Shown piece after piece: positions 1-29,452 of a stretch of 29,452 nucleotides of DNA. The translations under genes were made by a program, and so were the position numbers. Source of the DNA: a virus; the IMG/VR virus record IMGVR_UViG_3300021963_000485, positions 1 to 29,452 of that record; one strand, written 5' to 3'. Under the pieces are notes generated by a model. The model saw only the letters and a program-made list of their open reading frames with translations, searched no databases and was not told the DNA's origin. Every line of letters starts with the position of its first letter. The stretch's first letter is position 1.

Positions 1-165
1 GGCTTCGGGCTGGCCGCCGATGGTGGCCAGGTCGATGAAGATGTCCTCGCGGAACTTGCCCTCCTGGGGCGTGCCCTTCTCGCCCAGGCCGCGGATGTTG
101 ACCCAACCCTGGTCGGGGCAGCCGCCAAAGACGACGGACAGATAGGAGTCGATCTCGGCCTTCAT
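1..165 (-). CDS. Putative phage replication protein (primase/helicase type), N-terminus only
   Basis: The ORF starts at an ATG that overlaps the stop of the upstream HTH gene (ATGA) and stays open to the window edge, so only about 55 residues are visible. It begins MKAEIDSYLSVVFGG and continues with a segment containing NIRGLGEKGTPQEG and FREDIFIDL. The opening (a short helix, then an FGG...GWVNIRG strand) resembles the first residues of phage-encoded primase, primase-polymerase or DnaB-type proteins, but no catalytic motif lies inside the window. Its place after the helicase and exonuclease genes fits a replication role. The gene is certain by overlap and frame; the function is a weak inference, and another large replication protein is equally possible. 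Confidence 0.45.
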   Translation of the reverse strand, partial: MKAEIDSYLSVVFGGCPDQGWVNIRGLGEKGTPQEGKFREDIFIDLATIGGQPEA

Positions 166-512
166 GGCAGGAGCCGGTTGTTCCGGTTCGGGACCTGGAG
201 GCCCTGGAACTTGATGAAACGGGAAATGTTGTGAGCGCCGACGTCGCCAAGCTCCTTGGCGATCTGCGCGTGGGTCATGCCCTTGGCGCGCAGCGCGACG
301 ATCTTCGCCTCCCAACCGGTCTTGTCGTACTTGTAGCCCTTGCGCTTGCGGCGGTTGCGCCACTCAAAGCCAAGGATCCGGGACCAGTTGCGCAGCGAAG
401 ACGCGGACCAGCCCATCCATTCGGCGGCCTGGTTGACGTTCATCCCGGAGCTGTTGGCCCGGTGCATGAGCGGCAGCAGGGCCTTGATCCGTTCCATCCG
501 GGCGTAGGTCAT
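162..512 (-). CDS. Small double helix-turn-helix DNA-binding protein
   Basis: About 116 residues, very basic, with two segments that look like helix-turn-helix units. The first is around MNVNQAAEWMGWSASSLRNW; a basic linker rich in Arg and Lys follows; the second is around the segment with THAQIAKELG and NISRFIKFQG. The layout suits a small phage regulator or a DNA-binding accessory protein. I chose the ATG at 512 because AAGGG lies just upstream. A GTG at 548 overlaps the stop of the previous gene (GTGA) and would add 12 residues, but it has no ribosome site. The stop overlaps the next gene's start by 4 nt, so the two are probably translated together. The target and role are not known. Confidence 0.7.
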   Translation of the reverse strand: MTYARMERIKALLPLMHRANSSGMNVNQAAEWMGWSASSLRNWSRILGFEWRNRRKRKGYKYDKTGWEAKIVALRAKGMTHAQIAKELGDVGAHNISRFIKFQGLQVPNRNNRLLP

Positions 513-544
513 CTCGACGCCCTTGAAGCTGAAGCGCGCGCGTT

Positions 545-847
545 TCACAGGAGCCGGATGAAGATGGGTGTGCGCGGGCCGACGTAGGCGCCGGTGACGT
601 TGAAGCTCATGTGCTCCAGGGCGTCCTCCTCGGTCATGCCGTCGCGGATGCGAAAGATCTCGATGCACTTGTCGTAGCTGTAGGCGACGACCGGTTCGGA
701 GACGCCCTCGGTGATGCCGATGATCGCGGCGTCGAGCCCGTCGGCCACGAGCATCTCGCCGTCGGCGTGTTCGTCTACCAGGGCGCGCAACGCCTTGCCC
801 TCCTTTTCGAGCTGCAGGAGCTCGCGCTTGCTTACTTTTTTAGCCAT
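545..847 (-). CDS. Conserved hypothetical phage protein, about 100 aa
   Basis: The protein starts MAKKVSKRELL and has a helical, charged N-terminal part followed by a compact region with EPVVAYSYDKCIEIF, a DGMTEEDALEHMSFNV segment and a C-terminal GPRTPIF. The 'EEDALEHMSFNV..AY.G..TPIF' pattern recurs in small phage proteins of unknown function that sit among replication genes. The start at 847 lies inside the last codons of the exonuclease gene (16-nt overlap), so translation is probably coupled. The leader is C/A-rich with no Shine-Dalgarno. No enzymatic motif is visible. The ORF can be extended upstream to 895, but that would overlap the exonuclease by over 60 nt and add a low-complexity His/Pro/Thr tract, so I prefer the short form. 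Confidence 0.7.
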   Translation of the reverse strand: MAKKVSKRELLQLEKEGKALRALVDEHADGEMLVADGLDAAIIGITEGVSEPVVAYSYDKCIEIFRIRDGMTEEDALEHMSFNVTGAYVGPRTPIFIRLL

Positions 848-1596
848 TTCGGTGTGGTTGGTTGGGGGTTTGTGGTGATTGGTTGGGCCCAGCATGTGCC
901 CTTGAAGTCGCAGAACTTGCAGCGGAAGTCCGTGGACTCCCGGCCGATCCGGTTCAGCTCGATCGGCGAGCTGGAGCTGACGACCCGGACGGCCCGGTCG
1001 CTGGCCTCCTGGGCCGCCAGGGCGTCGAAGGGGATGATCTCCGCGTGGACCTCGCCGGTGTTCCGGTTCTGGATCGTGAAGACGCAGACCTGGAGCTCCA
1101 TGTAGGCCATGTAGACCTGGGCCTGGGCGTAGTACAGGGGCTTCGCGACCTTGATGCCCTTGGTCACGGCCTCCTTCCAGCCCTTCTCGTTGAGGGCCTT
1201 GTTTTCCCAGAGAGCGGGCCAGGCGACGCCGGCCGGACCGCCCAGGATCACGCCGTCAATGTGGCCCTTGAGCTTGCCCCCACCGGCCGAGAAGCCGAAT
1301 TGCTTGCCGTCTTCGCCCTCGGTCAGGAGCTGGAAGCCGGCGCGCTTGAGGTACTCGGCCATGCGGGCCTCGCCGTCGTGGCCCATGTCAAAGATCCGAA
1401 GGGTGTCGGCCTTGAAGTCGGCGTCCGGCTTGGCCTTGTGGTACATGTAGCCGAGCTTCCGGTCGCACGGGTCGCCCCACATGGAGGCGCCCAGGTATTG
1501 GCGGCGCTCCTGGCCGGCGCGTTTGGCGAGCATGGCTTCACTGAGTGATGCGACGACGGCGGCGGCCACCGGGTCCGGTGTTTGTTCCTGGAACAT
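832..1596 (-). CDS. PD-(D/E)XK exonuclease of the RecB/Cas4 type with a predicted Fe-S cluster
   Basis: A 254-residue nuclease. The PD-(D/E)XK core is visible: GHIDG around residues 111-115 (Asp114), then WENKAL with Glu131 and Lys133, and the RecB-type Q-x3-Y motif at Gln158-Tyr162. One Cys near the N-terminus (Cys44 in GDPCDRKLGY) and three near the C-terminus (Cys226, Cys229, Cys235) form the 1+3 pattern that holds a 4Fe-4S cluster in Cas4 and AddB nucleases. The likely role is resection of double-stranded ends for recombination or replication, working with the neighbouring helicase, SSB and Sak4-like ATPase. The ATG overlaps the helicase stop by one base (TAATG), indicating coupled translation. 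Motifs are seen directly; the Fe-S cluster and the partners are inferred. Confidence 0.85.
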   Translation of the reverse strand: MFQEQTPDPVAAAVVASLSEAMLAKRAGQERRQYLGASMWGDPCDRKLGYMYHKAKPDADFKADTLRIFDMGHDGEARMAEYLKRAGFQLLTEGEDGKQFGFSAGGGKLKGHIDGVILGGPAGVAWPALWENKALNEKGWKEAVTKGIKVAKPLYYAQAQVYMAYMELQVCVFTIQNRNTGEVHAEIIPFDALAAQEASDRAVRVVSSSSPIELNRIGRESTDFRCKFCDFKGTCWAQPITTNPQPTTPKWLKK

Positions 1597-3302
1597 TAGT
1601 TGAGGATGGTGCGCTGGATGCGGGGTTCGTTAATCTTCCAGGTGATCAGGCAGCACGCGAGGTACTTGGTCATGCCGAAGGCCATGCCCCCGGCAAGGCC
1701 AAGCAGTGACAGTTGCTTGTCGGAAGCCGGTTGCGACAGCCAGCGTTTGGTCTTCTTGGCAGCTTCTTTGTCGCCGTGCGCGCGCAGGAAGTCGTCGGCC
1801 GAAGCCAGGGCCTGCAATTTGTCCTTGGATCGGTTAAGGAGGTTCACCGAAGTCTCACGACGGCCACCGACGGCATGCCACATCCCGTCATGGTCGACCA
1901 GGCACGCCCAGGCGTCGATCCCGTTGGCCATGGTGACGGCCCCGTCGAACATGTCCTGCCACCGATAGGGCGAGAGCTCCATTAGGTGGATCTCGGTCAT
2001 CACGAATTCCTCCAGGGGCTTGCGCGGTTCGCGTTCGCCGGCCTCGGTCTCGTGGATGTGGCCGCACACCGGGCAGATCTTGACGCCGGCTGGGATCTCG
2101 ATCCCGCAGCCCTCACAGGCCTTCATGCGGCCGCCGCTCTCGCGGTCCTGGCCGACAGTCGGGTCGGACTCGATCGAGCCGTGGGTCAGCAGGGAGTAGC
2201 CGAAGTCCAGGACGATGCAGTCGGATTTCAGGGCGTTGGGGTACCGGGCCGGGTCGACCTTGCGCAGCCCGCGGCCGATCATCTGGATCATGGTGCCCTT
2301 GTAGGAACAGGGGCGCAGCAGGACGACGCAGCTGACGTCCTGGCAGTCCCAGCCTTCGGTCAGGACGGCCACATTGATCAGCACCTGGATCTCGCCCTTG
2401 TCGAAGGCCTTGAGCACCTTGCGCCGGGCCAGGTCGGGCAGATCGCCGTGGACCATGTCGGTCTTGATGCCGGCTTGCTTGAACCCCTCCATGACGTGGC
2501 CGGCGTGGGAGACAGTGGAGCAGAAGACGACAGTCTTGCGGTCGCCGGCCTTGTCCTTCCACTCCTGGATCACGCGGTCGTTGACCGCCTGTTTGTCCAT
2601 GATCTTGGACACCTGTTCCATGTCGAAGTCGGTCGCCGTGGTCTTGACATTGGCCAGGTCGCCGCGGATGTCGCAGTCGATCACGAAAAACCGGGGCTTC
2701 ACCAGGAACCCGGACGAGATCAGCTCGCCCAGGGTGATCACGTCGGAGATGTTGTCGAAGGCCTCGCGCAGGGCCGCGCCGTCCCCGCGCTGCGGGGTGG
2801 CCGTGACGCCGAACACCTTGAGCGCCGGGTTCATGGTCCGGGCGTGGTTGATGATGTTGCGGTAGCTGTTGGCGGCCACATGGTGGGCCTCGTCGATCAC
2901 CAGCAGATCCAGCTTGGGCATGGACTCCAGGTTGTCCTGGCGGCACAGGGTCTGGACCATGCCGAAGGTGACGCCCGGCGACCAGCGCTTGCGGGCCGCG
3001 GTGTACAGGTCGGTCTCGATCTCCGGGGCGACCGCCTTGAAAGTGGACCGGTTCTGAGCCACGAGCTCATCCCGGTGTTGGAGGATCAGGGCGCGGCCGC
3101 CCATGCGCTTGGCCACGGCCGAGAGCATGACAGTCTTGCCGGCGCCGGTTGGCGCGATCCCCAGGGTGTTGCCCTTGGACTCAAGGGCGTCGATGCAGCG
3201 CTGGACGAAGTCGCGCTGCCGTGGGCGTAGTTGCATGTCGGTATGCAGGATGGGGGGCGTCGGGATAGGCCGTCCAACCGGAGGCTTCACCGATGAAGGC
3301 AT
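1596..3302 (-). CDS. Superfamily 2 DEAD/DEAH-box helicase with zinc ribbon
   Basis: 568 residues. Motif I is APTGAGKT (50-57), motif II DEAH (137-140), motif III TATP (167-170) and motif VI QMIGRGLR (340-347), giving a complete two-domain SF2 helicase. A C4 zinc ribbon follows (Cys396, 399, 410, 413). The tail after about residue 420 has no clear domain; residues 530-568 are hydrophobic and helical. The build resembles phage and bacterial SSL2/RecG-like helicases used in replication, recombination or repair. It is the first gene after a terminator-like hairpin. The strong AAGGAGGAG lies about 20 nt from the ATG, too far for a normal ribosome site, and no in-frame ATG, GTG or TTG lies between; the next ATG is at residue 23, just before the helicase core. 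I keep 3302 as the start with moderate confidence in it. Confidence 0.9.
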   Translation of the reverse strand: MPSSVKPPVGRPIPTPPILHTDMQLRPRQRDFVQRCIDALESKGNTLGIAPTGAGKTVMLSAVAKRMGGRALILQHRDELVAQNRSTFKAVAPEIETDLYTAARKRWSPGVTFGMVQTLCRQDNLESMPKLDLLVIDEAHHVAANSYRNIINHARTMNPALKVFGVTATPQRGDGAALREAFDNISDVITLGELISSGFLVKPRFFVIDCDIRGDLANVKTTATDFDMEQVSKIMDKQAVNDRVIQEWKDKAGDRKTVVFCSTVSHAGHVMEGFKQAGIKTDMVHGDLPDLARRKVLKAFDKGEIQVLINVAVLTEGWDCQDVSCVVLLRPCSYKGTMIQMIGRGLRKVDPARYPNALKSDCIVLDFGYSLLTHGSIESDPTVGQDRESGGRMKACEGCGIEIPAGVKICPVCGHIHETEAGEREPRKPLEEFVMTEIHLMELSPYRWQDMFDGAVTMANGIDAWACLVDHDGMWHAVGGRRETSVNLLNRSKDKLQALASADDFLRAHGDKEAAKKTKRWLSQPASDKQLSLLGLAGGMAFGMTKYLACCLITWKINEPRIQRTILN

Positions 3303-3356
3303 GGTAGCCGGGATGGAACCGACTCCTCCTTACTTTCCTGCCACGCCCCTTACCTT

Positions 3357-3387
3357 GAAAGAGAACCGGCCAGGTTTCCCTGGCCGG
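3357..3387 (-). terminator. Probable intrinsic terminator after the SSB gene
   Basis: On the minus strand the SSB stop codon is followed within a few bases by a perfect 9-bp stem, CCGGCCAGG / CCTGGCCGG, with a GAAA tetraloop on that strand (plus coordinates 3366-3374 and 3379-3387), and then TTCTCTTTC. The U-tract is interrupted, so termination may be partial. It splits the Sak4/SSB unit from the helicase/exonuclease unit and sits in a 91-base gap. Confidence 0.65.
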
Positions 3388-3393
3388 CGTTGA

Positions 3394-4098: not shown

Positions 4099-4127
4099 GA
4101 TGTTTTTTGGGTTTTTTGGGTTGGTTT

Positions 4128-4985
4128 TTAGGATGCCTTTTGCGGCAGAGTGGTGACGATGTTGGTGTCAATGCGCTGGCCGGTGCGGATCTTGGCGATC
4201 AGCTCGCCCAGGTGGGGCGGCTCGACCATGTCCAGGCGGCCGGAGCGGTCCTTGGCGGGGTAGCCCCAGGGGTTCATCTGGGTGCAGACCAGCCCGCGGT
4301 AGCCAAGGCCTTCCGGCGTGGTGAAGGATTGCAGGGTGACGACCTGGTCGAAGATCCCCGGCAGCTCGCGCCCGGTCTTGGAGCCCTCGATCTGGGGCGT
4401 CCAGGAGATGCGGTTCAGGTCGTCCTTCTCGGAGTCGAGGATGCCGACCACGATGATCGACTTGTTGCTGTGCTGCAGATGGGTCAGCCAGCGGATCATC
4501 TCGCGGCCCAGGAGCCCGTAGGCGCCGCGATTGTCGGGCTTGCCGGTCTTCTCGGACATGGCCTCGGGCTGGATCTGCGACCACTTGAGGGCCTCGCGCG
4601 AGGCGACAGTGATGGAGTCCACGAAGATGGTCGTGTACTTGGACAGGTCGACGCCGGCGAACACCTCGGCGACCTTGTTGTACATGGCCTGGCTGTAGGG
4701 GCCATCCCGGTCGGCGGGATCGGGCCCGCCGATGTAGAGGGCGAGCGCGCGGGCGATCTCCCAGGGGTGGGCGCCCAGGCCGATGGCCGCTTCGCGGACA
4801 TCCAGCACGTCGCCGGACCAGTCCTGGATGGCGAGGGTGCCGGCCTCCAGGTCCACGAACAGCGTGGTCTTGGGGTCGAGCGTGCGGGCGAGCGTGGTCT
4901 TGCCGACTCCGGACGGGCCGAAGATGGCGATGTTGATCTTGGGGACGGCCTTGAGTCGGTCGTCCGCTTTGATGATGCGGATCAT
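4128..4985 (-). CDS. RecA-fold ATPase, Sak4-like phage recombinase
   Basis: 285 residues. Walker A is GPSGVGKTT at about 23-31, and a Walker B-like strand TIFVDSI lies near residue 118-125. The protein is a single RecA-fold core, as in the AAA_24 / Sak4 group of phage single-strand annealing and strand-exchange ATPases. The segment with IIVVGILDSEKDD and the Gln/Thr-rich loop near LPGIFDQVVTLQSF fit the sensor and DNA-binding part. Length is typical of the family. It directly precedes the SSB gene. The leader is C/A-rich (CCCAACCCAACCGACATC) with no Shine-Dalgarno. Alternative: a DnaB-like or packaging ATPase; size and neighbours favour Sak4. Confidence 0.75.
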   Translation of the reverse strand: MIRIIKADDRLKAVPKINIAIFGPSGVGKTTLARTLDPKTTLFVDLEAGTLAIQDWSGDVLDVREAAIGLGAHPWEIARALALYIGGPDPADRDGPYSQAMYNKVAEVFAGVDLSKYTTIFVDSITVASREALKWSQIQPEAMSEKTGKPDNRGAYGLLGREMIRWLTHLQHSNKSIIVVGILDSEKDDLNRISWTPQIEGSKTGRELPGIFDQVVTLQSFTTPEGLGYRGLVCTQMNPWGYPAKDRSGRLDMVEPPHLGELIAKIRTGQRIDTNIVTTLPQKAS

Positions 4986-5011
4986 GATGTCGGTTGGGTT
5001 GGGTGGAAAAC

Positions 5012-5732: not shown

Positions 5733-5757
5733 CGCGCAACCACAATTTGTAGGACTG

Positions 5758-7073: not shown

Positions 7074-7210
7074 TTTTTGAATTCGTCGGCGATGGTCTTG
7101 GCCTTCAGCTCAAGGCGCTGGGCCTTGGCGACATTGTTGCGGTACAGCAACGCGCCGCCGACGGCACCGGCGATGAAGGAAAAGGCAGAGGCTAGGAGCA
7201 GGGCGATCAT
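7070..7210 (-). CDS. 46-aa single-TM protein
   Basis: The ATG at 7210 gives MIALLLASAFSFIAGAVGG, one hydrophobic N-terminal segment, followed by a short basic helical tail (KAQRLELKAKTIADEFKK). The stop is at 7070-7072 and overlaps the GTG of the lipoprotein gene by 4 nt, which argues that it is a real translated unit. It lies 8 nt after the stop of the giant ORF and has no Shine-Dalgarno (TCATCACC before the ATG). The topology suits a pinholin-like protein or a very short inner-membrane partner of the next gene; at 46 residues it is too short to span the periplasm. Confidence 0.6.
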   Translation of the reverse strand: MIALLLASAFSFIAGAVGGALLYRNNVAKAQRLELKAKTIADEFKK

Positions 7211-7218
7211 GGTGATGA

Positions 7219-10200
7219 TTATTTACCAGGGGTGGGTCGGGGTTGGCGATAATTGTATGGGTTCTTGGGCTCCCTCTTTTTGTCGGGTGACTCCGGTTGC
7301 GTGGCCTCGATCGCCATGTTGGACAGGGTCGTGTCGTTCATGGCCATGGACATGGCCGCGCCGGCAATCGGGTGAATGGCGGCAGCGCCGGCCACCGCAG
7401 CGCCTTTGATCGGCGGAATAGCAGCTTTGACAGCAGCCTTGTTGGCGGCGGCCATGGCCCTGGGCTGCTTTTCTTCGTCGGCCATGCTGGCCTCCAGGTA
7501 CTTCTTTCCGGCGCGCCCGACGTTGATCGCGTGCTGGCCGGGGATGCCGCCAGGCGGCTGATCGCGCGCGATGAACTTGATGGCCTGTTCGACCTTGGGG
7601 CCGAAAATGCCGGCGTAGGAGGCGGCGTCGGTGAACTGGGCCCACCACGGATCGTTCTCGTGCTTCACAGTGGCCTCGGTCGGGAACAGCTCGCGCCGAA
7701 GCTTGAACATGGCCGAGAAAGCGATGGCCGCCAGGGGCAGCATCATGGTCGGGGCGGCCAAGCGCAGCCGGTCGGCCAAGGTGTAGTCGCCACTGGAGAT
7801 CGCGCGCTTGGCGTTGTCGTAGATACGGCTGTTGGCCTCGGCCGCGTAGGAGTAGCTGAAGCTTTGCAGCTGCAGGAACATCTTGCCGAAGATGTTATCC
7901 TGGAACACCGGCCGGTGGGCTCGGTTGGCTCGGATCGCGGCCTGGTTCGTGAACCGGACCTGGGCCTCCTCGTACAGCTTGGACATGTCGCTTCCGTCGG
8001 TCATGGCGGCCAGGCGTTGGCTGCGGGGCATGGCGTTGATCCCCTGCAACCAGGAGATGAAGGCCTGGTGCTGGGCCTCGGGAACGCCCAGCTCGACCAG
8101 GTCCTGGCCGGCTGACCGGCTGGTATCCATCCCGAACATGTTCATCCAATGGTTGCCGGAGATCATGCTGCACAGGTCGCCGATGTAGCTGTGTCCCAGG
8201 GCATGGGAAGCCTGTTGCTTGGCGGTTTCCGTGGCCTCCATTAGGTTGGCCTTGTAGACCCGGTTGGTCCACCAGCGCATCTTGGGGTTCTGGTTGTCCA
8301 TCCCCAGCTCCATGCTGTGGGTGGTCATCCAGGCGTCTTCCAGGCTATTCTGGATGGTGCCGATCTGCTCCCCGTATTGCTGCCAGAAGCTGCCTTGGCT
8401 GAGCCGGTTGACCAGGGGTAGGTCGCGGCTGATCTCATTGAGCGCCCGGGCCCAGGTCTCGCCGTAGGCGCGCAGCGCGTAGATCGGGCTGCCGGCCCTG
8501 ATCCCCATGGCGATGGGCTCAAACAGGTTGCTCATGAAGCTCTTGCCCAAAGAGGTGGCAGCCGTGTACAGGGCTACGAAATCCATGAACCCCTGGCCCT
8601 TCTTGCCCAGGGTAGGGGTGCCTACGCCGGCTGCCTGGCAGACCAGCTGGTGCATTTCCTCGATCACCTCGTGGGGAACCCCTTCGGCTTCCATGCCCTG
8701 GGAATACTTGGCCCAGCCCGTGCCGTCCGCGCCGAACCGGCGGGCCAGCTCCGCGCTCTTGGTGGCGCCGCCGATGTAGCGGGTGATCACCAGGAAGGGG
8801 TCGTTGGACTGCCAGGCGCGCATGATGTTCTGGGCCTGGCGGCCGAACACGCGCTCCTTTGCGGTGTTTTCGCGGCCCCCCGGGCTGGTCAGGTCAAACA
8901 GGCTGCCGAACTGATCGGCGCCGATCCCGCGGACATGGGTGTTGTACAGGGCCAGGGCCGAAGCCGCGGCTGTTGCATCGAGCTCAGGGCCGGACATGGT
9001 CTTGGACAGCTCGATCTTGTAGGCGCGCTCGGCATCGGCCAGGAACTGGGTCCGGTTTTTGATGATCAGGTCGGAATTGTAGACGACCGGGAAGTAATCC
9101 TGTACCTGGCCCAGGTCTTCGCCGGCTTCGACCCGGTAGGCGTGCAGCTCGGCCATCAGCTTCTTGAGATTGTCGGCCATCTGGCCGACGAAGCCGCCGT
9201 CCAGGTTGCGTCGACCTGTGATCATGTCGGTCAGCTTCTCGTAGAATTGCTCGCGGCTGGCCGTGGTCATGGCGCCCAAGTGGTCGCGCATGGGTTCCAT
9301 GATGTCCCGGAACCGGTTGGTGAAACGGCCCCTGGCGGTGGAGATCGATGTCGGCAACGATCGCGGAGCCGCGCTGCCCTGCATGCCGGGGCGGTTGTGG
9401 ATGATGTCGGCCACGGCCTGGATGGAGGCGCCCGGAAAACGGCGGGCGTTCTGGTGGGCCTTGACGCTGATGCCGCTGAAGTAACGCAGCGTGACGACGT
9501 CCCAGGCCTTTTGCATCGCGGAGACTTCCGGGTTGACCGGAGCAGCGCCCGTCGGGGCCGCCATGGAATAGCGGCGCGACGGCTTTATCGGCGGGGGGGA
9601 TGTCGGGGTCGGGTTCTGCATGTCGCCGCCGACTTCTTCGGAAACGCTTGTTTCGTTAACTTGTTCGGCCGCGTTCTTGGCTCCCTGGGGCGTTGGTGCC
9701 TTGTTTTCAAATTCCTCAAGCGAACCGGCGGTGCTTCCGGCCAGGAGGTTTTCCTGCATCTTCCCGAAGTCTTCGGCTTTTTTCCTGATGTCCAACGATC
9801 CATTGGCGATTTTCTCAATGGTCTTCGGGCCATGCCCCATGTCATCGCCTTCGTTGGCAGATCCGACCGGGAAAACTGTGCGGACAGTCATCACGTTGTC
9901 GACAGGGGTGAGCACGACCTGGATGCCGGTCTCCATGTCAACAAGCGTCACCTTGGTGACGTTTCCGTTGGCATCCTTGTATTCGATCCGATGCTTGGCG
10001 TTGGCGATCGTGTAATTCACGGCATCTATGATGCCCGCGAATACATCAATGCGCGACTGATCCAGGTTTCGTCTAAAATCAGTGCCTTCCTTTTTAGCCC
10101 GGATTGCCGCGTGACGGGCGGTGATGGCGCCGGCGTGCTTCAGTAGGTGGGCAAGCCCGAACCCGGACTCCTCGCCCAAGGTGCCTGTGCCGGCCAGGCC

Positions 10201-12854: not shown

Positions 12855-12893
12855 CTACCGCTTCGTCTTTTTTTTTTGGTCTCCGGAGAGACC
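12855..12893 (-). promoter_or_regulatory. Putative -1 frameshift or transcription-slippage site joining the two giant ORFs
   Basis: On the minus strand the 1313-codon ORF ends in A10 (plus 12868-12877) followed by G. In frame this gives the heptamer A AAA AAG, the slippery sequence used by E. coli dnaX, then ACG AAG CGG and TAG. After a -1 slip the next codons (GAC GAA GCG GTA ...) are open for 26 codons to the ATG of the 1856-codon ORF. Immediately 5' is a 6-bp hairpin GGTCTC-TCCG-GAGACC (12878-12893) with a GGAG seven bases before the heptamer. A net +1 A by RNA polymerase slippage would give the same frame. An A-run sequencing or assembly error is the plain alternative. Confidence 0.55.
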
Positions 12894-15800
12894 TTGTTCG
12901 ACGACGTCCTGGAGCGATCCAGGCGCCTGGGCTTCGCCCTGGCCGCGGTTGTAGTCGGAACCGGACTCCTTGAAGTCGGTGCTGTAGCCGATGATGTGCC
13001 GGCTAAGCGTGACCTCCTGGTTGTTCATGGCGTCCAGGGCAGTCAACTTTGTGGCGTTGGCGACCTTGCTCATGTTTTCGATGACCTTGACCGCGGTGGG
13101 CATGTCCAGGCCGGCGGTGTAGATGAACATGTTGACAGCTCCGGACCGGTCCACGCCGGCGGCGTATTTGGCGAACCCGGGTTGCTTGGTCCCGGGGAGA
13201 TTGGCCTTCATGGCTTGCATGACATCGGCGTCCAACGGGATCGCAGCCACGGGCCGGTTGGAGTTGTCGGCCAGGATGATGCCAGGCTGGTCAGGGCCGA
13301 ACACCTCAAGGAACTTTTTGCCGAGCACCATGGGATCGCCGAGCGCTTCGGTGCTTTGGCTGACCCGGTAGGAGAACATCCGCTCGGTCAGCGGAACGCT
13401 GAACTTGCGGGGCATCGGCTTGATGTTTTGGCCGGACAGGATGCTGCCGCGGTTGTCCATGTAGGCGAACTTGGACCCGGCGACGGCCATGGTGGCCATG
13501 TACCTCAGGCCGGCGGCGTCGCAAAGGTTCTGGACGGCGTTGGCAGCGCCCAGGTCGGCCGGGGACAGGGAGCTCTTGCCGGACGGGTGGTTGTGGATGA
13601 ACCAGACCTGGGCGGCGCCAGGGGTGCTGGCCGCGGTGCCGATCAGGATGCCAGGATTGAAGCCGGCCGAGGCCGGGCCGCCAAGCTGATGGCTGGCGAT
13701 CTGGATCGGGCGCCCCTGCTTGTCGGTGATGAGGAGAACGATGTTTTCCTGGGGGCGCTTGCGCATGCCGGCGACGACATGTGCGGCTTCCTCGGGCGTC
13801 TTGACGAATTCGACGCCGGACGAGATCTTGCCGACTGTCGAATGTTCGACGAACTGATCCAGCATGGCGTCGGACAGGCCGAACTTGGCCATCTGCTCGC
13901 CGGACAGGCGGCCGAACACACCAGGGGTGGCGTCCAGGCGCGGGAAGTCGGAGACGCCCAGGCCAGCAGGGCCGGCGGCGGGCTTCTTGGCGCGGGGCTT
14001 GCGGGTCTTCTTGATGATCGGTTCGGCGGGCTGCGCGTTTTCCAGGCTGCTGGGCTGAGCACCGGCGCCGGCTTCGCGCTCCTGGCGGTCAAAATCAGCC
14101 TGGGCGTTAGGATCATCCGGGTTGGTTTCGCTGGCAGCTTCGCCTTCCTCGACGCCCATGCCCTGGCTGACGACGTCGCCCAGGGACTGCGGAGCTTCGC
14201 GCTCGATCGGAGCTTGGTCGCCTTCGCCTTCGGCGCCGTATTCGGTGCCAGGTTCGTTGAAGCCGGTGCGCTGGCCGGTGCTCATGCGGCCCCCGGTCTT
14301 GTCGCCGGATTGGTAGGACGCGGCGTTGCTGAACTGCGAAATTACCAGATTGCTGAAATTCTTTTTGTTGTTGATGACGTCCAACACCTCGACCTTTTGG
14401 CCGCCGACGCGGAGGATGGCCTTCTGGAGGTTCGTGACGGCGTCCGTCCTGGTGTCGTTCCCGGAGGTGCCGACATCGTTGGGGCCCATGCTGATGATCA
14501 CGCTCTCGGCGTTGGACCGCTCTAGAGCGGCCATGAGCATGGCAAGCGGGTTGTTCCAGGCGCCCGGGCCGACGTCCTTGTTAAACTTTTCGCGGCGGTA
14601 AGTGCGCTTGTCCTGGTCGCCAGGGGCGCGATCGCTTTCCTGGCCGATGTAATCGCGAGCCTGGCCCTGCTCCGGGTAGATGATCGAGGCAGCCGAAGAC
14701 ACGTTCCGCATCTCGGAGATGCTCATCTGGATCACGCCTACCAAGCGGCCGGCCTTGTCGAGCATGGCGACGCCTGGGAGATTACGGAGAAGCGGAGGGA
14801 TCTGCTCGATCGCGTCCTTCGGTTCGGCGATGCGCGGGAAAAGCGCTTCTTTTCGGACCTCAAACATGCGCTCAACGACCTGGAGTTTGGTCGTCGCGAT
14901 GCCTTCGTCGATGCGATCGTCAAAAACGACGACGTTTTTCACCGATCCTTCGTTCCAATTATTGGGCAGCTTGGTGTTCGCCGTGTTGATGGCGTCCGGG
15001 GTTTTGTTGACCTGGTCGCCGCCCGGGTGGAAGATGTACTTTGGGACCATCGTTCCTTCGTAAGCGTCGCCGTCGGTGACAACCAGCGAGCCGCCAAAAC
15101 GAAGGCCAATCGGCTCCATCGTCGCGGCAATTTTTTGAGCAGCCCCGACGTCAGCTTGCGAGAACCGGGTCGTGGTCGACGGGTGATTGTGCACCAGGTA
15201 AACAGTGCGGGCGCCCCGGGTGCTGGCGGCTACGCCGGCCAGGATGTGGGGGACGAAATTAGCGCTCGAAATGGCCCCGAGCTGATGGCGCAGGATCTGG
15301 AGCGGACGGCCCTGGCCGTCCAGGATCACGAGCATTAGGTTTTCCTGGGGCTGCTTGCGGAGATATTCGTAGGCCAGGGCGGCGACATCGTCGGCGTTGT
15401 CCATCGGACGATCCGGGACAGTCATCTCGCCGACTACGGCGCGATCCACGAACTGGCTTAGGACGGCGCGCGTCAGGCCTACGCGAGCGAGGAGATTTGG
15501 GGAGATGCCCTTGTTGCCCTGGGAGAAGCGGCGGCCATCCCGGCCGACAACGACCAGCTCGCCGCCTTCAATCGAAGACTCGGCCGGACGGGTGTTCTGC
15601 AGCGGAGAGCCGGCGAACGCGGGCTCAAGCTCGGGCTCGACCGGGGCTTCGGCCGGCTGCTCCTGGGGCTGCTCGATCGGCGCCGGCTCATCCGGGCGCT
15701 CGTAGGGAGACGGGGTGTACGGGCGACCGGGGTCGTTGCCGTCGGCGCGCTGGTTGGCGCGGCGCGCAGCCAGGGCTTCCGGGAAGTCTTCCTGGGGATT

Positions 15801-16796
15801 GACCGCATTGGGATCGGTTTGCAGCGGGGCACCGCGGCGAGCCGGCTGCTGCGGGGCAGGAGCGGGGGCTACGGGCGCGGGGGCGGGAGCCGGAGCAGCT
15901 TGTTGAACAGGAGCCGGAGCGACCGGAACAGGGGCGGCGACGGGGGCCGGCGCGGGGGGCTGAGCCGGAAGCCCGGCGGCGCGCTGGGTAGCTTGGAAGG
16001 GAGCCGGGGGCTGATACGCCGGTTGAACCGGGGGCTGAACTGGGGAAGATCCTGGGACATAGGGCTGCTGCGGAGCCTGGACCTGTTGAGCCGGCTGGGC
16101 AAACAAAGAAGCCATGCCCTGGGGGGCGGCAGGAGCCGGGGCCGGGGCTGCGGGCTGGGCGATCCCGGGGGCCTGGGGGAAAGCAGCCTGGGGAGCCATC
16201 TGGGGGGCGGCAATTGGGGCCGGCGCGAACGGCTGCTGCGCGAGCTGCGGGATCTGGGGGGCCTGAGGCGGAGCGCCAAGGGGCGACTGACCACCCAGGC
16301 CGCGGGAGACTAGATCAGCCAGGGTCGTGGCGCCGGTGATCGCCTGGCCCTGGGCCTGGCCCATGGCGAGCTGCGGGGGGACCTGGGGCTGGGCAAAGGG
16401 CGACATGGCCGGAGCCATGGTCGGCGCCATGCCGGCGTCGTAAGAGGGAAGGCCGGCGCCCAGGGCGGGCGACGACATCGGATCAACCTGGGGCTGGCCG
16501 ATCGGACCGAGGCCCGCGGTGCCCATGCCGAACAGCGAAGACAGATCAGTGGGCGCGCCCTGGGGTACGCCTTCGGGCCGGGCGAACGGGTTCAGGATCG
16601 TGTCGACGCCGCTGGTCGGCATCGGTCCGGTGGCCTGGCGCGTAGCCAGATCGGCCTGGCCGGCGGGCGTTGACGCCTTTGCGGCGTCTTGGGCTGCAAT
16701 AAGCGCTTGGAGCTCCTGGCTTTGCTGCATCGCGCGGTCAAGCGCGTCAGTGTTGGTCGTCTTGGGGCCAGTGTTCGTGGTAATTCTTACAGCCAT
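12855..16796 (-). CDS. Large internal virion / polyvalent protein with two RadC-like JAB metalloprotease domains
   Basis: 1313 residues. About residues 60-400 are low-complexity Pro/Ala/Gln-rich and probably disordered. Then comes a unit of about 400 residues (422-824) and a second copy (962-1270). Each has a helical lead, a 'PQEN..L.I.D.QGRP.QI..HQLG' strand pair and the JAMM signature: His536, His538, Ser546, Asp549 in unit 1 (HNHPSTTTRFSQAD) and His1068, His1070, Ser1078, Asp1081 in unit 2 (HNHPSGKSSLSPAD). Both are followed by a homologous 'ERMF' domain. RadC-like JABs are known in phage polyvalent proteins, thought to be injected with DNA and to blunt host defences; zinc peptidase activity is inferred. 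The ORF ends at the A10 slippery run. Start ATG 16796 has an AT-rich leader and no Shine-Dalgarno. Confidence 0.85.
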   Translation of the reverse strand: MAVRITTNTGPKTTNTDALDRAMQQSQELQALIAAQDAAKASTPAGQADLATRQATGPMPTSGVDTILNPFARPEGVPQGAPTDLSSLFGMGTAGLGPIGQPQVDPMSSPALGAGLPSYDAGMAPTMAPAMSPFAQPQVPPQLAMGQAQGQAITGATTLADLVSRGLGGQSPLGAPPQAPQIPQLAQQPFAPAPIAAPQMAPQAAFPQAPGIAQPAAPAPAPAAPQGMASLFAQPAQQVQAPQQPYVPGSSPVQPPVQPAYQPPAPFQATQRAAGLPAQPPAPAPVAAPVPVAPAPVQQAAPAPAPAPVAPAPAPQQPARRGAPLQTDPNAVNPQEDFPEALAARRANQRADGNDPGRPYTPSPYERPDEPAPIEQPQEQPAEAPVEPELEPAFAGSPLQNTRPAESSIEGGELVVVGRDGRRFSQGNKGISPNLLARVGLTRAVLSQFVDRAVVGEMTVPDRPMDNADDVAALAYEYLRKQPQENLMLVILDGQGRPLQILRHQLGAISSANFVPHILAGVAASTRGARTVYLVHNHPSTTTRFSQADVGAAQKIAATMEPIGLRFGGSLVVTDGDAYEGTMVPKYIFHPGGDQVNKTPDAINTANTKLPNNWNEGSVKNVVVFDDRIDEGIATTKLQVVERMFEVRKEALFPRIAEPKDAIEQIPPLLRNLPGVAMLDKAGRLVGVIQMSISEMRNVSSAASIIYPEQGQARDYIGQESDRAPGDQDKRTYRREKFNKDVGPGAWNNPLAMLMAALERSNAESVIISMGPNDVGTSGNDTRTDAVTNLQKAILRVGGQKVEVLDVINNKKNFSNLVISQFSNAASYQSGDKTGGRMSTGQRTGFNEPGTEYGAEGEGDQAPIEREAPQSLGDVVSQGMGVEEGEAASETNPDDPNAQADFDRQEREAGAGAQPSSLENAQPAEPIIKKTRKPRAKKPAAGPAGLGVSDFPRLDATPGVFGRLSGEQMAKFGLSDAMLDQFVEHSTVGKISSGVEFVKTPEEAAHVVAGMRKRPQENIVLLITDKQGRPIQIASHQLGGPASAGFNPGILIGTAASTPGAAQVWFIHNHPSGKSSLSPADLGAANAVQNLCDAAGLRYMATMAVAGSKFAYMDNRGSILSGQNIKPMPRKFSVPLTERMFSYRVSQSTEALGDPMVLGKKFLEVFGPDQPGIILADNSNRPVAAIPLDADVMQAMKANLPGTKQPGFAKYAAGVDRSGAVNMFIYTAGLDMPTAVKVIENMSKVANATKLTALDAMNNQEVTLSRHIIGYSTDFKESGSDYNRGQGEAQAPGSLQDVVEQGLSGDQKKKTKR
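12985..15532 (-). repeat. Duplicated JAB-plus-ERMF unit
   Basis: Protein-level duplication. Unit 1 starts at the GRRFSQ motif (near 15532) and unit 2 at GRLSGEQM (near 13908). The aligned landmarks are 'GL(T/S)(R/D)A(V/M)L(S/D)QFV', 'VGE/K', 'RKxPQEN', 'QGRP(L/I)QI', 'HQLG', 'ASTxGAxxV', HNHPS, 'A(D)(V/L)GAA', 'ERMF', 'A(M/I)LDxxGR-like', and 'VEVLDVINN' against 'LTALDAMNN'. Similarity is clear at protein level and weak at DNA level, so the duplication is old. Both metal-ligand sets are intact, so neither copy looks dead. Confidence 0.75.
15590..16620 (-). repeat. Pro/Ala/Gln-rich low-complexity tract
   Basis: Residues about 60-400 of the 1313-aa protein are built of irregular PAP, APV, QPP and APQ runs, for example APAPAPVAPAPAPQQPARR. 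At DNA level this gives many short GGGGC/CCGG-like repeats. It is probably a flexible linker that lets the protein thread through the portal; that role is inference. Confidence 0.6.
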
Positions 16797-20374: not shown

Positions 20375-21211
20375 TTATTGGATTTCGTTGCCTTTCTTGG
20401 GCCTAAACAAGTTAACAAGGTTCATGAAGGCCGGGCCTTTGTTAGTGGTTGCAAAGGTGGACCAGTCGAGGTCGCTTCCCTTGTAGAGTCGGTTGGTCTG
20501 CAGGTGCAGATAATTGCCATCCCCGACAGGCTTGAGCGTGTTGGACCCGTCCAGGGAGTTAAGGAAGCCCATGTCATCCGCCGCAGCGTTTGCGGCCTCC
20601 TCGGCAGTCTGAGCGCCTACCCCGGCCCCGGCGGCCATGCCGCTAAGGGTGCCGATCGTGGACAGGGCCGAGCCGATGTTCTTCATGTTGTCGCCGGCGC
20701 GGCTGGCAAAGTCCAGCTCGGCGCCCGAGGCTGCGGCCGATCCGGCCATGTTGCCGGCGATGATGCCCTGGCCCAGGCGCATCCGGGCGTTCTTGATCGC
20801 GTTGAGCTGGGCGGCGTCGCCAAAACCGGCGAGCTTGGCCTTGGCGGCGGCCTCCATGCTGGAGGCAGCCTTGCCGGAAGCCGACCGGACGCGCGACTCG
20901 TCCGCAACGATCTGGGATTTGTTGCCGTAGGACGAGCCGATGTCGGCAGCCGAGCCAGTGGCCTGGGCCGCGGTGGCCGCAGCCTGGCGATCCGCGATGG
21001 CTTTGTCCTCGGCCTTGATCGTGTTGGCCTGGGTTTCCGACCCCAGGGACTCGTTGAACAGGGCGTCGGCTTCATCCCGCATCTTTTTCTGCCTGAGGCT
21101 CTCGGCCGCCTGGACATTGTTCATGGCCTTGCGGGTTTGGGAGGCAGCCTTAGCCTGAGCGGCCGTTCCAAGGGCGGTGGCTACCAGGGAAGCTGTGGCG
21201 AAGTCGCACAT
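20375..21211 (-). CDS. Internal core protein, T7 gp14-like
   Basis: 278 residues, MCDFATASLVATALGTAAQAK. It opens with Met-Cys and a hydrophobic alanine-rich helix, then a long helical, Ala-rich, charged region without Pro. T7 gp14 has the same start (MCW) and build and is ejected into the outer membrane to begin the DNA channel. The C-terminus (about 210-278) has extra NLFRPKKGN and Trp/Leu segments. AGGAAG stands about 6 nt before the ATG, one of the few clear ribosome sites here. It begins 1 nt after the stop of the other MC-protein. The family call rests on start, composition, size and order. Confidence 0.65.
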   Translation of the reverse strand: MCDFATASLVATALGTAAQAKAASQTRKAMNNVQAAESLRQKKMRDEADALFNESLGSETQANTIKAEDKAIADRQAAATAAQATGSAADIGSSYGNKSQIVADESRVRSASGKAASSMEAAAKAKLAGFGDAAQLNAIKNARMRLGQGIIAGNMAGSAAASGAELDFASRAGDNMKNIGSALSTIGTLSGMAAGAGVGAQTAEEAANAAADDMGFLNSLDGSNTLKPVGDGNYLHLQTNRLYKGSDLDWSTFATTNKGPAFMNLVNLFRPKKGNEIQ

Positions 21212-21830: not shown

Positions 21831-21835
21831 GATGG

Positions 21836-25769: not shown

Positions 25770-26470
25770 CAGTAGGGCCGGTCGTCCCGGACGAAGCGAC
25801 CGCCGACGATCCGAAGGCGCTCGGCGCGATCCACGCCGCCGCCATAGATGAAGCGATCAGTCTTGAGCCCCATGCCCTTGAGGCGGTTGAAATGGGCCTG
25901 GGCCTGGCTCAGCTTGGCCGTGGCGTCGGCGGCCTTGGTCCGCGCCAGGTACTCCGCGGCCGCGTACAGGACGATCAGGGTGTCGTCCAGGGTGGCGATG
26001 TCGGCCGAATTGACCAGGGGCGCCAGCTTCTTGACGGCCTTGAACCGGACGATCTGGCTGCTGGTGGTCGGGACGGGCCAGACTTCAAACTGGTTGCCCT
26101 CGTAATGGCGCCACCGGACGACCGGCTCGGTGTGGCCGCCGGCGTCGGAGTCGTGGTTGTTGTACTGCGCCGGGCCGATGCCGTAGTCGATCGGGTGCCA
26201 GATGCTGCCGTATTTGACGTGCGACTCGACGATCCGGTCGAAGTCGATGTCGTTGTCGAAAGTGTAGTACCGCTGCCCGGCGATCAGGGGCTCGTCCCGC
26301 TCGATCATCCCGAAGGACCAGTCGAAGTCGTTCCACAGGCGCTGCTGGGTCCGGCGCAACAGGTTGTCGAATTGCTCGATCGTGTTCACGCCCATGGCCA
26401 CGTTCGGGGAAGCCCCGATCTCGGCCTTCAGCTGGTCGCGTAGGGCCAGCAAGCTGGTTCCCCGGGCCAT
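25769..26470 (-). CDS. Tail adaptor / tail tubular protein A-like (SU10 adaptor type)
   Basis: 233 residues. The pattern fits the podoviral adaptor fold that joins portal and nozzle (T7 gp11, phage SU10 adaptor): an N-terminal helix ALRDQLKAEIGAS, then FDNLLRRTQQRLWNDFDWSF, 'RYYTFDNDIDFDRIV', 'YEGNQFEVWPVP', and a helical C-terminal half with DDTLIVLYAAAEYLART and AHFNRLKGMGLKTDRF. Length is typical. The gene sits 3 nt after the small post-capsid gene and overlaps the nozzle start by 1 nt. No Shine-Dalgarno is visible before its ATG. Confidence 0.8.
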   Translation of the reverse strand: MARGTSLLALRDQLKAEIGASPNVAMGVNTIEQFDNLLRRTQQRLWNDFDWSFGMIERDEPLIAGQRYYTFDNDIDFDRIVESHVKYGSIWHPIDYGIGPAQYNNHDSDAGGHTEPVVRWRHYEGNQFEVWPVPTTSSQIVRFKAVKKLAPLVNSADIATLDDTLIVLYAAAEYLARTKAADATAKLSQAQAHFNRLKGMGLKTDRFIYGGGVDRAERLRIVGGRFVRDDRPY

Positions 26471-26473
26471 GGC

Positions 26474-26791
26474 TTATTCGGCAGCCGCGGCCTTCTTGGC
26501 GGGCTTGGTATCGGATTTCTGGATCTCCAGGCCGACTTCCTCAAAGGTGCTCGGCAGCTTGGGGAAGGTGCCGGCGTAGACCTTGGAGAAGACCTGGGCG
26601 CCGTATTCGTCCTTCAGGCGGGCGACCTCGGCGGCCTGGGTGCGCTTGGTGACGACCAGGCCCTGGCCGTTGACGACGGCGTCGGAACCATGGACCTCGC
26701 GCAGCAGGGGCACCTCGGCCGCGGTGACGGACCGGACGACAGTGTGTTGGACATTCCCGTTCAGCAGGATCTCAGCGATGGCGGTTTGCAT
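26474..26791 (-). CDS. Small protein between capsid and adaptor, 105 aa
   Basis: It begins MQTAIAEILLNGN, has a compact middle (ITAAEVPLLREVHGSDAV-like region with VNGQGLVVTKRT) and a Lys/Ala-rich tail. It is the first gene after the capsid terminator. Similar small genes in this slot can be head-completion or decoration proteins, but nothing here identifies it. The ATG at 26791 has only a weak CAGG upstream. The coding potential is supported by tight packing (3 nt to the adaptor) and by a GC-rich third position. Confidence 0.65.
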   Translation of the reverse strand: MQTAIAEILLNGNVQHTVVRSVTAAEVPLLREVHGSDAVVNGQGLVVTKRTQAAEVARLKDEYGAQVFSKVYAGTFPKLPSTFEEVGLEIQKSDTKPAKKAAAAE

Positions 26792-26825
26792 ACCTGGATG
26801 ATCGTGCTTGGGCTGGCTAGCTGCG

Positions 26826-26857
26826 CAAAAAGAAAGGGGGCCCTGAGGGCCCCCTTT
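26826..26857 (-). terminator. Strong intrinsic terminator after the major capsid gene
   Basis: The minus strand has a perfect 11-bp stem AAAGGGGGCCC / GGGCCCCCTTT with a 3-base loop TCA (plus 26833-26843 and 26847-26857), followed by CTTTTT. It is about 20 bases downstream of the capsid stop, in an 88-base gap. T7 also has its major late terminator directly after the capsid gene, so this one may set high capsid output against lower expression of tail and core genes. Confidence 0.85.
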
Positions 26858-26879
26858 GTGTAGGACATCCTGATCCGGA

Positions 26880-28004
26880 TTAGTCGACGATCGCCTGGTA
26901 GACGCCGCAACCCGAGAGCTGCTTGGCCACCATGCCGCCCGTCCAGGTCATCGCCTTGTAGATGACATACTTGTCCTCAGGGCGGGCCGGGTTGTGGGTC
27001 TTCTTGTCTTCGCCGTCCATGACGTACATCTGGATCGCATCGGTATCGATGAGATAGCAGAAGTTGGTCCGGGTGTTGTTGCCTTCCTCGCCGTCGACGT
27101 CGCCGTTCTGGGTCGGAGCGTAGCCGGGGAGATCGTCCAGGGTCGGGTCGTAGACGAACTCGCCGACGCCCAGGAGCTCAGTGGCGCCCATGCCGACAGT
27201 GTTCGTGCCCTTGGAGAAGCCCGTCATGGAGTAGAAGCCCTTGTTGTGGATCTCCTTCTCCAGCAGCTCCAGGAACCCGGAACCGCACAGGATGGTCGTC
27301 GGCTTGCCGCCGTAGCGCTTCAGCTGACGGATCTCCTTGCGGAGGCCGTCGATGATGTTGGTCTGGCCGGCGACATAGCCGAACTGGCCGGACCGGTTGC
27401 GCCAGAGCGGATTGGCGGCGCGGGACAGGCCACCGGTGGTGCCGACAGCGTTCAGGTCCACAGTGCCGCCGGTGATGGCGAGGCCGGGCTTGATGAAGCT
27501 GGAGAGGCCGGGGACCTTCTTGGCGTCGGTCGTGCCGTCCTTCCAGAGCATCGTGTTGAAGCTGCGGGCCCAGCCTTCGGTCATGTCGTCGAGCTTGGCC
27601 TTGAGGATGTTGGTCAAGACAGTGGCGTCGCGGCCGCTGTGCTTGCTGGTGTTCTCGCCAGTCACGGAGTCAGTGACGGAGATGCCGTCGATCTTGAGCT
27701 CGGTGAGGGTGACGGAGATGCCGGCGTGGATTTCCTTCCAGGGGTAGAACACCCGGCGGGTGTTCTGCGGGTTGGAGTAGGAAACCTGGTCGTCGCCTTC
27801 GTAGCCGGAGATCGAGGGGAGCTCGGACTGGAAGGAAACCGGGAGGGAGATGTCGCCCTTGCCGCCCGGGAAAGTCTGCTGGCGCTTGGTGAAGACGCCG
27901 ATCAGGGGCTTTTCCTGGATGGTCTGCTTGAAGGCGTCGGACTTCACGTGGAAGTCGAGCGCCGAGGCGACGATGTGGTCGAGGGTGGAGAAGGAGTTGG
28001 CCAT
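26880..28004 (-). CDS. Major capsid protein
   Basis: 374 residues from MANSFSTLDHIVASALDFH. It resembles podoviral HK97-fold capsid proteins: an early segment 'KRQQTFPGGKGDISLPVSFQ', a helix-rich core with 'LTNILKAKLDDMTEGWARSFN', 'QLKRYGGKPTTILCGSGFLELLEKE' and a C-terminal beta region 'MYVMDGEDKKTHNPARPEDKYVIYK', ending GCGVYQAIVD. It lies after the scaffold gene and before the strong terminator, the T7 gene 9-10 order. The leader is C/A-rich (AACCAGATACCACC) with no Shine-Dalgarno, unexpected for a gene needing high output. The call rests on context, length and fold-like pattern. Confidence 0.8.
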   Translation of the reverse strand: MANSFSTLDHIVASALDFHVKSDAFKQTIQEKPLIGVFTKRQQTFPGGKGDISLPVSFQSELPSISGYEGDDQVSYSNPQNTRRVFYPWKEIHAGISVTLTELKIDGISVTDSVTGENTSKHSGRDATVLTNILKAKLDDMTEGWARSFNTMLWKDGTTDAKKVPGLSSFIKPGLAITGGTVDLNAVGTTGGLSRAANPLWRNRSGQFGYVAGQTNIIDGLRKEIRQLKRYGGKPTTILCGSGFLELLEKEIHNKGFYSMTGFSKGTNTVGMGATELLGVGEFVYDPTLDDLPGYAPTQNGDVDGEEGNNTRTNFCYLIDTDAIQMYVMDGEDKKTHNPARPEDKYVIYKAMTWTGGMVAKQLSGCGVYQAIVD

Positions 28005-28028
28005 GGTGGTATCTGGTTCGTGTTTGGT

Positions 28029-29096
28029 TTAGGAGCCTTGCAGCCCCATCCGGACCAGGTCCGCGAGGGATCTGGGGGCCGGCGTTGTTGAAGCGGACGA
28101 CAAAGAGCTGGCTGGGGTCCTGAGCGGCATCGTCCTCCCTGCCAGCGGCCTGAGGCGAGCGTTCACGTCGGTAAGGGCGCGTTGTGCGATCTTGATTGCA
28201 TCCGACGGATTGCTGGCTGGCTGCTGGGTCAGGAGAGCCTTCACCCGGTCCTGCACCATCTCGTATTTTTGGGACCAGTCGGGATCCTTCGCCCGTTCTG
28301 CCTGTTCCCAACGCATGACGGCGGCGACCATCTGATTGGAGTTGTCGATCGCCTGTTGGCGGGCGACCATCTCCTGCTCAGCCTGGATGCGCTGCTGTTC
28401 TTCCACCTGACGGGCGTATGAAAACTCACGCTCGGCCTCAAGCTGCGCGAGGCGCTTCGCGGAGTCCGGATCGATGTAGCCGTTGTCCAGCTTGTCCTTG
28501 ATCTCCGGGGGAAGTACATCCCCCGTGAAACGGGCCAGGTTCTGGACATAGCCCTGCAGCTGCTGGTAGGCGGCCGCGGGGTTGGTCTTCATCAGCGCCA
28601 TCACAGTCATGCCTTCGGCCATTTCCTGAGGGGTCAGGCCGTTGGTCTTCATGAACGTGGTGATCTTTCCGTACTGCTCAGCCGCCGGCTTGAAGCTGTC
28701 GCGTTCAGCGATCATCGCTTTCCATCGGGGGTGGTTGTGGAACGGCAAGTCGGACTGCACTTCGGAGCCGTCCTTCTGCGCCTGGCTGTCCTTGCCTGGC
28801 GCATCGTTAGGCTGTCCCGGTGCGGGAGTCGACTGTACCTTCGCGGTGGACGGGTCCGCGGGATCCTTCGCTTCAAACGCCGTTTTTACGACATCCAGCA
28901 AACTATCCTTCTTAGCGTCCTTGTCGACCGCCGGCGACGAACTGGCAGTCCCTTCATTTAGCGTCGGTGCCGTCTCCTGCCCCGTCCCGATATCGGGGGT
29001 CGAAGACTGCGTGACCTCGGCCGGAGCCGGGGTCGGGTCGTGTGTGGCCGGAGCTGACGAAGCTTCGGCGGGCGTTGTTAGCGTCGAATTGTCCAC
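28029..29096 (-). CDS. Capsid scaffolding protein
   Basis: 355 residues from a GTG at 29096 with GGAG close upstream. The first 110 residues are Thr/Ser/Pro/Ala-rich and disordered, and the middle and C-terminal parts are helical and charged (KRLAQLEAEREFSYARQVEE, then Gln/Glu-rich), with a Met-rich stretch in between. The basic C-terminal tail (ARLRPLAGRTMPL, ending LADLVRMGLQGS) is typical of scaffolds, which bind the capsid protein through a helix there. Position directly before the major capsid gene supports the call. The ribosome site and start codon lie in a 12-bp hairpin, so translation may be controlled. Confidence 0.75.
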   Translation of the reverse strand: MDNSTLTTPAEASSAPATHDPTPAPAEVTQSSTPDIGTGQETAPTLNEGTASSSPAVDKDAKKDSLLDVVKTAFEAKDPADPSTAKVQSTPAPGQPNDAPGKDSQAQKDGSEVQSDLPFHNHPRWKAMIAERDSFKPAAEQYGKITTFMKTNGLTPQEMAEGMTVMALMKTNPAAAYQQLQGYVQNLARFTGDVLPPEIKDKLDNGYIDPDSAKRLAQLEAEREFSYARQVEEQQRIQAEQEMVARQQAIDNSNQMVAAVMRWEQAERAKDPDWSQKYEMVQDRVKALLTQQPASNPSDAIKIAQRALTDVNARLRPLAGRTMPLRTPASSLSSASTTPAPRSLADLVRMGLQGS

Positions 29097-29123
29097 GACT
29101 CCGATCTTTCGTCGGAGCCGTGG
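29093..29123 (-). promoter_or_regulatory. Hairpin covering the scaffold ribosome site and start codon
   Basis: The minus strand reads CCACGGCTCCGA, loop CGAAAGA, TCGGAGTCGTGG: 12 bp with one G-U pair. The 3' arm contains the GGAG ribosome site and the GTG start, so the folded form would block initiation. With no T-tract after it, it is not a terminator. Sequestration is inferred from pairing. Confidence 0.55.
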
Positions 29124-29147
29124 CTTTGCAATCCGCGCACTTCCCCC

Positions 29148-29452
29148 TTATTGGGGGCTAGGAGTCGGCAGCCCGTACATCTTCGGCTGCGGCATGTTGG
29201 GCACCTGGGCGTTGCCGCCGGGAGGAGCTCCAGGAGCCGCGGCTTCAGGGCCAGGCATCGGCGCACCGCCCATGGCCTCCGGGCCGCCGGCCATCTGGGC
29301 CTCGCCCATCTGCTTTTGGGCGTTCTGCTGGACGATGGACGGAATGGCGGCCTTGACGGCTTCAGCCATGTCCACGCCGTCGTCCATGCGCTTGATCGCC
29401 TCCTTGGCCAGCCAGGTCGGGTCAATGCCCGGGATCTGGATCAGGAGGGGCG
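29148..29452 (-). CDS. Probable portal protein, C-terminal part
   Basis: About 100 residues of an ORF open at the window edge, ending with TAA at 29148. The visible part starts LLIQIPGIDPTWLAKEAIKR, has a helix MDDGVDMAEAVKAAIPSIV and ends in a Met/Gly/Ala/Pro-rich tail (EAQMAGGPEAMGGAPMP). The position upstream of scaffold and capsid, as in T7 gene 8, and the helical C-terminus followed by a flexible tail fit a podoviral portal protein (the dodecameric DNA gate). Without the core the call is contextual. Confidence 0.6.
   Translation of the reverse strand, partial: PLLIQIPGIDPTWLAKEAIKRMDDGVDMAEAVKAAIPSIVQQNAQKQMGEAQMAGGPEAMGGAPMPGPEAAAPGAPPGGNAQVPNMPQPKMYGLPTPSPQ

Follow-up and report, generated by a model that had tools for sequence, protein, structure and literature searches.

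A fragment of a tailed phage, an IMG/VR virus record 29,452 bases long to which no host genome belongs (analysed whole, and hereafter the window), carries no copy of two short sites, ACSGT and GAWTC, which the phage very probably purged under a putative Type II restriction–modification of its host; we infer that a restriction endonuclease of the host was the agent. Site elimination is a long-known anti-restriction strategy that has been surveyed systematically, with 7.1% of orthodox Type II sites eliminated and under 0.5% for restriction–modification of other types (Rusinov et al. 2018, PMC6286503). The phenomenon is known, and the window adds a clean new case of it, possibly with a Type II specificity that is undescribed. 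Phages whose hosts are unknown cannot be plated; a purged genome reveals the DNA words that those hosts cut, and the one family considered here yields about 15 purged words; several are sites of known enzymes, which serves as an internal check, and a few are not. Purges differ among phages that are ~80–95% alike, and restriction specificities, together with shifts in the host or in its defences, can be inferred from viral metagenomes alone.

Missing words in the window

Neither ACCGT nor ACGGT occurs on either strand of the window, as the preliminary description had stated. An order-3 Markov model predicts 35.0 copies on the two strands, and a shuffle that exchanges synonymous codons among the genes of the window, with every protein and the codon usage preserved, predicts 38.2 ± 4.1 (z -9.2); tens of copies were indeed to be expected, although an earlier hand estimate of about sixty was high by a factor of ~1.7. 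With the codon-shuffle expectation as the Poisson mean, the probability of finding none is ~3e-17. Codon shuffling gave this word the lowest z-score of the 512 pentamer classes, the outcome that had been named as support; under the Markov model it was the third lowest, and the two words that rank below it there, CCTGC (51 observed, 114 expected) and CCAGC (141 and 204), are far from absent.

ACCGT had been described as one asymmetric pentamer; the site is not asymmetric, nor is it the only one missing. Each of ACCGT and ACGGT reads as the other on the opposite strand, and the two therefore constitute one palindromic site, ACSGT, whose centre is degenerate; on the coding strand each of the two orientations is at zero. 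GAATC/GATTC (GAWTC) is likewise at zero, against 23.9 copies expected under the Markov model and 36.5 under the codon shuffle, and GCAGGY (GCAGGC/GCAGGT) is a third, nearly purged motif, with two copies against 58 expected by codon shuffle. Every one of the remaining zero pentamers (ATATG, ATATA, GTATA and CTATA) includes the tetramer ATAT or TATA, and the genome is G+C-rich. Words neighbouring the missing pentamers occur at normal counts or above expectation. In particular, ACAGT/ACTGT (ACWGT) is kept, with 37 copies against 17.5 expected, so that the missing site is ACSGT; ACNGT, the Tsp4CI-type site, was rejected on this count.

Taking elimination as an observed/expected ratio below 0.1 at an expectation above 15, both sites qualify under either model (ACSGT 0/35 and GAWTC 0/24 by Markov; 0/38 and 0/37 by codon shuffle), and both combine two-fold symmetry with absence in both orientations. 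The purge criterion used across the family, when applied to codon-shuffled genomes, returned 0 matches in 50,515 tests. Given this rate of false positives and the shuffle z-score, the absence of ACSGT is independent of codon use, composition and protein sequence.

The gene content of the window is that of a tailed phage, with capsid, SU10-type adaptor, large structural proteins, helicase, exonuclease, ATPase and an SSB-like protein. The search of the window genes returned no methyltransferase or restriction enzyme; the helicase was considered as a restriction enzyme and rejected, its Pfam 'ResIII' and PADLOC REase matches spanning the helicase domain only. Among the structural genes, a 1313-aa protein (12855-16796) contains two RadC/JAB-like stretches (PF04002), which are unusual in a virion module.

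Table. Positions of features in the window, and related contigs purged of CCTGA
Feature	Position	Strand	Basis or remark
Region with zero ACSGT and zero GAWTC	1..29452	both	Pentamer counts; purge spans the whole fragment
Cas4-domain exonuclease (phrog_1990)	832..1596	-	Recombination module
DEAD/ResIII-type phage helicase (phrog_16)	1596..3302	-	
Remaining GCAGGY copy 1	1810..1815	-	Reads RCCTGC on +; motif count
Sak4-like annealing ATPase (phrog_124, PF13479)	4128..4985	-	
Remaining GCAGGY copy 2	20500..20505	+	Motif count
Major capsid protein (phrog_9953)	26880..28004	-	Served to find and order relatives
CCTGA-purged contigs			L056-L058, L062-L067, L084, L086, L089-L094, L099, L104, L109-L112, L116, G015

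Loss across the phage family

Searches of IMG/VR with capsid, helicase and tail proteins gave more than 90 loci, and pentamers were counted in contigs of at least 9 kb. As the preliminary description had anticipated, the gap extends to related phages: ACSGT is also absent from G001, G002, G003, G006, L030, L031 and L035, and G005 has 1 copy against 74 expected. Where present, the capsid proteins of G001, G002, G003, G006 and L030 are 84–99% identical. GAWTC is absent from the nearest kin of the window and from G003, and near normal in G005, G006 and L035. Loss is lineage by lineage for ACSGT, GAWTC, GTWAC, CASTG, CCSGG, GCWGC, ACGT, GTAC and CGCG, among other words, each of which is gone from certain phages and has normal counts in their relatives. 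Thus G003 and G006 are without ACGT, CASTG and GTWAC; G015 is without GTAC (0/88 observed/expected), CCTGA (0/113), ACTGG, GAWTC and CASTG; G007 has CCSGG at 2/71; L119/G024 has GCWGC at 1/73 and ACSGT at 5/67; and L122 is without ACGT, AGCT, CCGG, CGCG, GATC, GCGC and CASTG. The 4-base palindromes purged in the family include ACGT (0/104), GTAC, CGCG (0/79) and CTAG. The six tetramers missing from L122 (IMGVR 3300042549_004128) are at zero in only 12,836 bases, with 33 to 56 copies expected of each.

The purged set is strongly enriched for symmetry: of the 32 quasi-palindromic pentamers, 13 have been purged from one contig or more, compared with 4 of the 480 others (Fisher p 3e-14, odds ratio 81). 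The contigs are kin, hence the number of distinct words is the fair statistic. A greedy gene caller admitted some antisense reading frames in the relatives, which slightly blurs the codon-shuffle expectations and leaves the Markov figures unaffected.

On a capsid (MCP) tree of 55 rows, the state of ACSGT changes five times, at least four of these changes being forced by well supported branches; the purged state is found in the window clade, in L070, in L111/L112 and in L119. ACSGT was purged at least four times. Pairwise alignments record how sites were lost. Between L124 and L119 (82% identical), none of the 21 ACSGT sites of L124 is conserved, compared with 15 of 29 copies of the look-alike TCSGA; in the alignment of the 3300047276 contigs with the window, the corresponding counts are 0 of 26 and 16 of 38. 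Replacements fall at all five positions of the site, including A>G, A>C, T>C and T>G, which argues for selection and not for one kind of mutation. The commonest replacement is ACTGT, a central C-to-T transition (5/21, 9/26 and 9/28), which agrees with ACWGT being harmless.

That transition is also what a mutational or compositional cause might leave, be it methylation-driven deamination, codon bias, dinucleotide bias or chance. Such a cause is almost certainly not the explanation, and as the main one it is refuted by the codon-shuffle and pairwise data: changes affect every position of ACSGT, the shuffled expectation lies far above the count, mutational bias would leave residual sites where zero is observed, and relatives of similar composition have normal ACSGT counts (72/80 in G015, 35/41 in L065). 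The absence in both orientations, the repeated loss within the family and the diversity of the substitutions, together with the codon shuffle, strongly support the earlier proposal that a DNA-targeting system selected against ACCGT; one agent then offered, an enzyme encoded by the phage itself, is disfavoured (see below).

Two members of the window clade, G004 and G011 (both 3300047276), retain about half of the expected ACSGT sites (27/44 and 25/53), spread over the contigs, and this partial depletion looks like relaxed selection once the pressure had gone. The absence could by extension be a relic, left by an ancestral purge under a restriction system since lost from the present host. We consider this unlikely for the window, because long neutral drift would regenerate some sites and the count is exactly zero in the window, G001, G002, G003, G006 and L030.

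Non-palindromic words are purged in the family as well, namely CCTGA, ACTGG, ACGGG and CCCAG, with GCAGGY in the window clade. Asymmetric CCTGA/TCAGG is the commonest purged pentamer of the family, lost from 21 related contigs (see table), and ACTGG and ACGGG behave in the same way in fewer contigs. GCAGGY, which is asymmetric unlike ACSGT, is also near absent in G001-G006, G011/L034 and G015 (0 against 80 expected in G005), normal in G007 and present in L124; in the window, GCAGGR stays close to expectation (46 against 52). CTCTTC, the EarI site, is at zero in the window, G001-G005, L030, L031 and L034, with codon-shuffle expectations of 8 to 13 where computed, but L111, L112 and L124 have 7 to 10 copies. 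The non-palindromic words imply that not every pressure on these phages came from an ordinary symmetric Type II system, and the agents behind them could be Type IIS or of another kind.

For CCTGA, ACGGG and GCAGGY themselves, Type III, BREX or Type IIS recognition would fit. Extended to the two sites missing from the window, however, recognition by a defence other than Type II (Type III, BREX, DISARM, phosphorothioation-dependent restriction or a CRISPR PAM) is very unlikely. The asymmetric, often strand-biased avoidance of the Type III/BREX kind was looked for and not seen with ACSGT, which is symmetric and zero on both strands; GAWTC too has two-fold symmetry and no copy in either orientation, the purged set as a whole is enriched for symmetry, and sites of other restriction–modification types are eliminated in <0.5% of cases (PMC6286503).

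Cargo genes that retain sites

In two members of the family, the copies of purged sites that are present are confined to genes that appear to have been acquired. L032, 95% identical to the window, has 5 ACSGT and 2 GAWTC sites, all at 7397-7918, within one 615-bp DNA-methyltransferase-like gene (7364-7978); its other 11.8 kb contain none, and the chance of the seven sites clustering there by random placement is ~7e-10. The gene resembles phage DNA cytosine methyltransferases, with at most 54% identity to phage proteins, some of them annotated as such. Clean backbone, 94–97% identical, adjoins it on either side, and L030 carries a different gene at the same position, one that we take to be PAPS-reductase-like, which identifies the position as a cargo locus. 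The matching flanks and the L030 cargo at the same place also make it unlikely that L032 is an assembly chimera. In G007, both remaining CCSGG copies (36470 and 37084) likewise lie within its C5 methyltransferase gene.

The simplest reading of these islands is recent import of unpurged genes, and site-bearing islands would accordingly mark recently arrived genes. A putative link between the methyltransferase-like gene and tolerance of the sites, or a protective role, is also possible. Seven sites are tolerated by L032, and restriction is therefore not absolute in all of its hosts. L032 and G007 are distant members of the family, and in each the site copies lie inside methyltransferase-like genes (L032:7364-7978; L028:16297-17472, which is G007). 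A search of 26 records (the window and relatives) for the two main DNA methyltransferase families gave a match in G007 only (PF00145 at 36324-37412); in the window clade, where the records are partly fragments, neither PF00145 nor PF01555 was found.

The L032 island also bears on whether the agent is the phage's own, a nuclease that cuts ACSGT in, for example, host or rival DNA and obliges its own genome to stay free of the site. Phages do encode site-specific nucleases, and the window lacks the terminase/portal side of the genome and some of its early region, where such a gene could be located. Against this, L032 bears five ACSGT sites in its cargo gene, no annotated window gene fits the role (the ResIII/REase matches being those of the helicase domain), and single phages of ~45 kb lack many different words; the sets of unrelated words missing from L122 and from G015 would require many phage nucleases. 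A nuclease of the phage is accordingly a highly improbable agent.

Candidate agents and known specificities

Sites that combine two-fold symmetry with a central S or W are typical of the orthodox Type II enzymes, and the quasi-palindromic form of ACSGT and of most other purged pentamers of the family points to an ordinary, two-fold symmetric Type II system in preference to Type III, BREX or a phage-encoded enzyme. Under host Type II restriction, the bacterial hosts would carry, or would recently have carried, restriction–modification cutting ACSGT and GAWTC. Phage DNA entering unmethylated would be cut at any such site, and variants with fewer sites, arising mostly through small substitutions, would survive until none were left ('no sites, no cleavage'), at which point the phage would be immune to that enzyme. 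The window resembles the published eliminations (PMC6286503) in its observed/expected ratios below 0.1, and in its short two-fold symmetric sites, and, as far as the searches for PF00145 and PF01555 in the partly fragmentary clade records go, in having no apparent methyltransferase of its own; it differs in that many sites turn over within one uncultured phage family.

The preliminary description named no known system with this site. ACSGT was not found as a motif in the restriction literature among the 5.39 million papers searched (REBASE lying outside their scope); the broader ACNGT is the site of Tsp4CI, HpyCH4III, Bst4CI and TaaI. These share with ACSGT the AC.GT outer bases and a single central base; of the ACNGT words only ACSGT is missing from the phages, ACWGT being retained, so that the specificity suggested here is narrower. 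GTWAC was likewise not found in the restriction literature searched, and GAWTC does co-occur with restriction there. Several other purged words match known Type II specificities: CASTG (TspRI), CCSGG (NciI), GCWGC (TseI), CTNAG (DdeI), CGWCG (Hpy99I), ACGT (MaeII) and GTAC (RsaI). ACSGT may be a new specificity, a lead and not a result. We give roughly even chances to the broader proposition that it is the site of a Type II system not yet described, the family being a record of turning-over host specificities of which some (ACSGT, GTWAC, CCTGA and GCAGGY) have no known enzyme.

Attempts to name the host yielded distant kin. A capsid-profile search of genome contigs gave only relatives at 31–45% identity (in Pseudovibrio, Vibrio hannami and a Deltaproteobacteria MAG), the same profile, run on 385 genomes from the class to which Pseudovibrio belongs, returned one more strong match, again among distant relatives only, and tRNA genes in the relatives gave no host lead. 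The closest named phage, Microcystis phage Mae-Yong1326-1 (MCP 40%), has a normal ACSGT count (71/66) and is therefore no pointer to the host of the window.

The other site purged from the window coincides exactly with GAWTC, the site of TfiI and PfeI, and is distinguished from GANTC, the HinfI and CcrM site, by the intact GASTC of the window (GACTC 40 observed, 35 expected). GANTC is the CcrM methylation site in alphaproteobacteria. All or nearly all GANTC, GAWTC and GASTC alike, is gone from three relatives with links to cultured or binned bacteria, L052 (Rhizobium phage RHph_N65), L053 and L055, yet the records of L053 and L055 are those of a deltaproteobacterial MAG and of Vibrio hannami.
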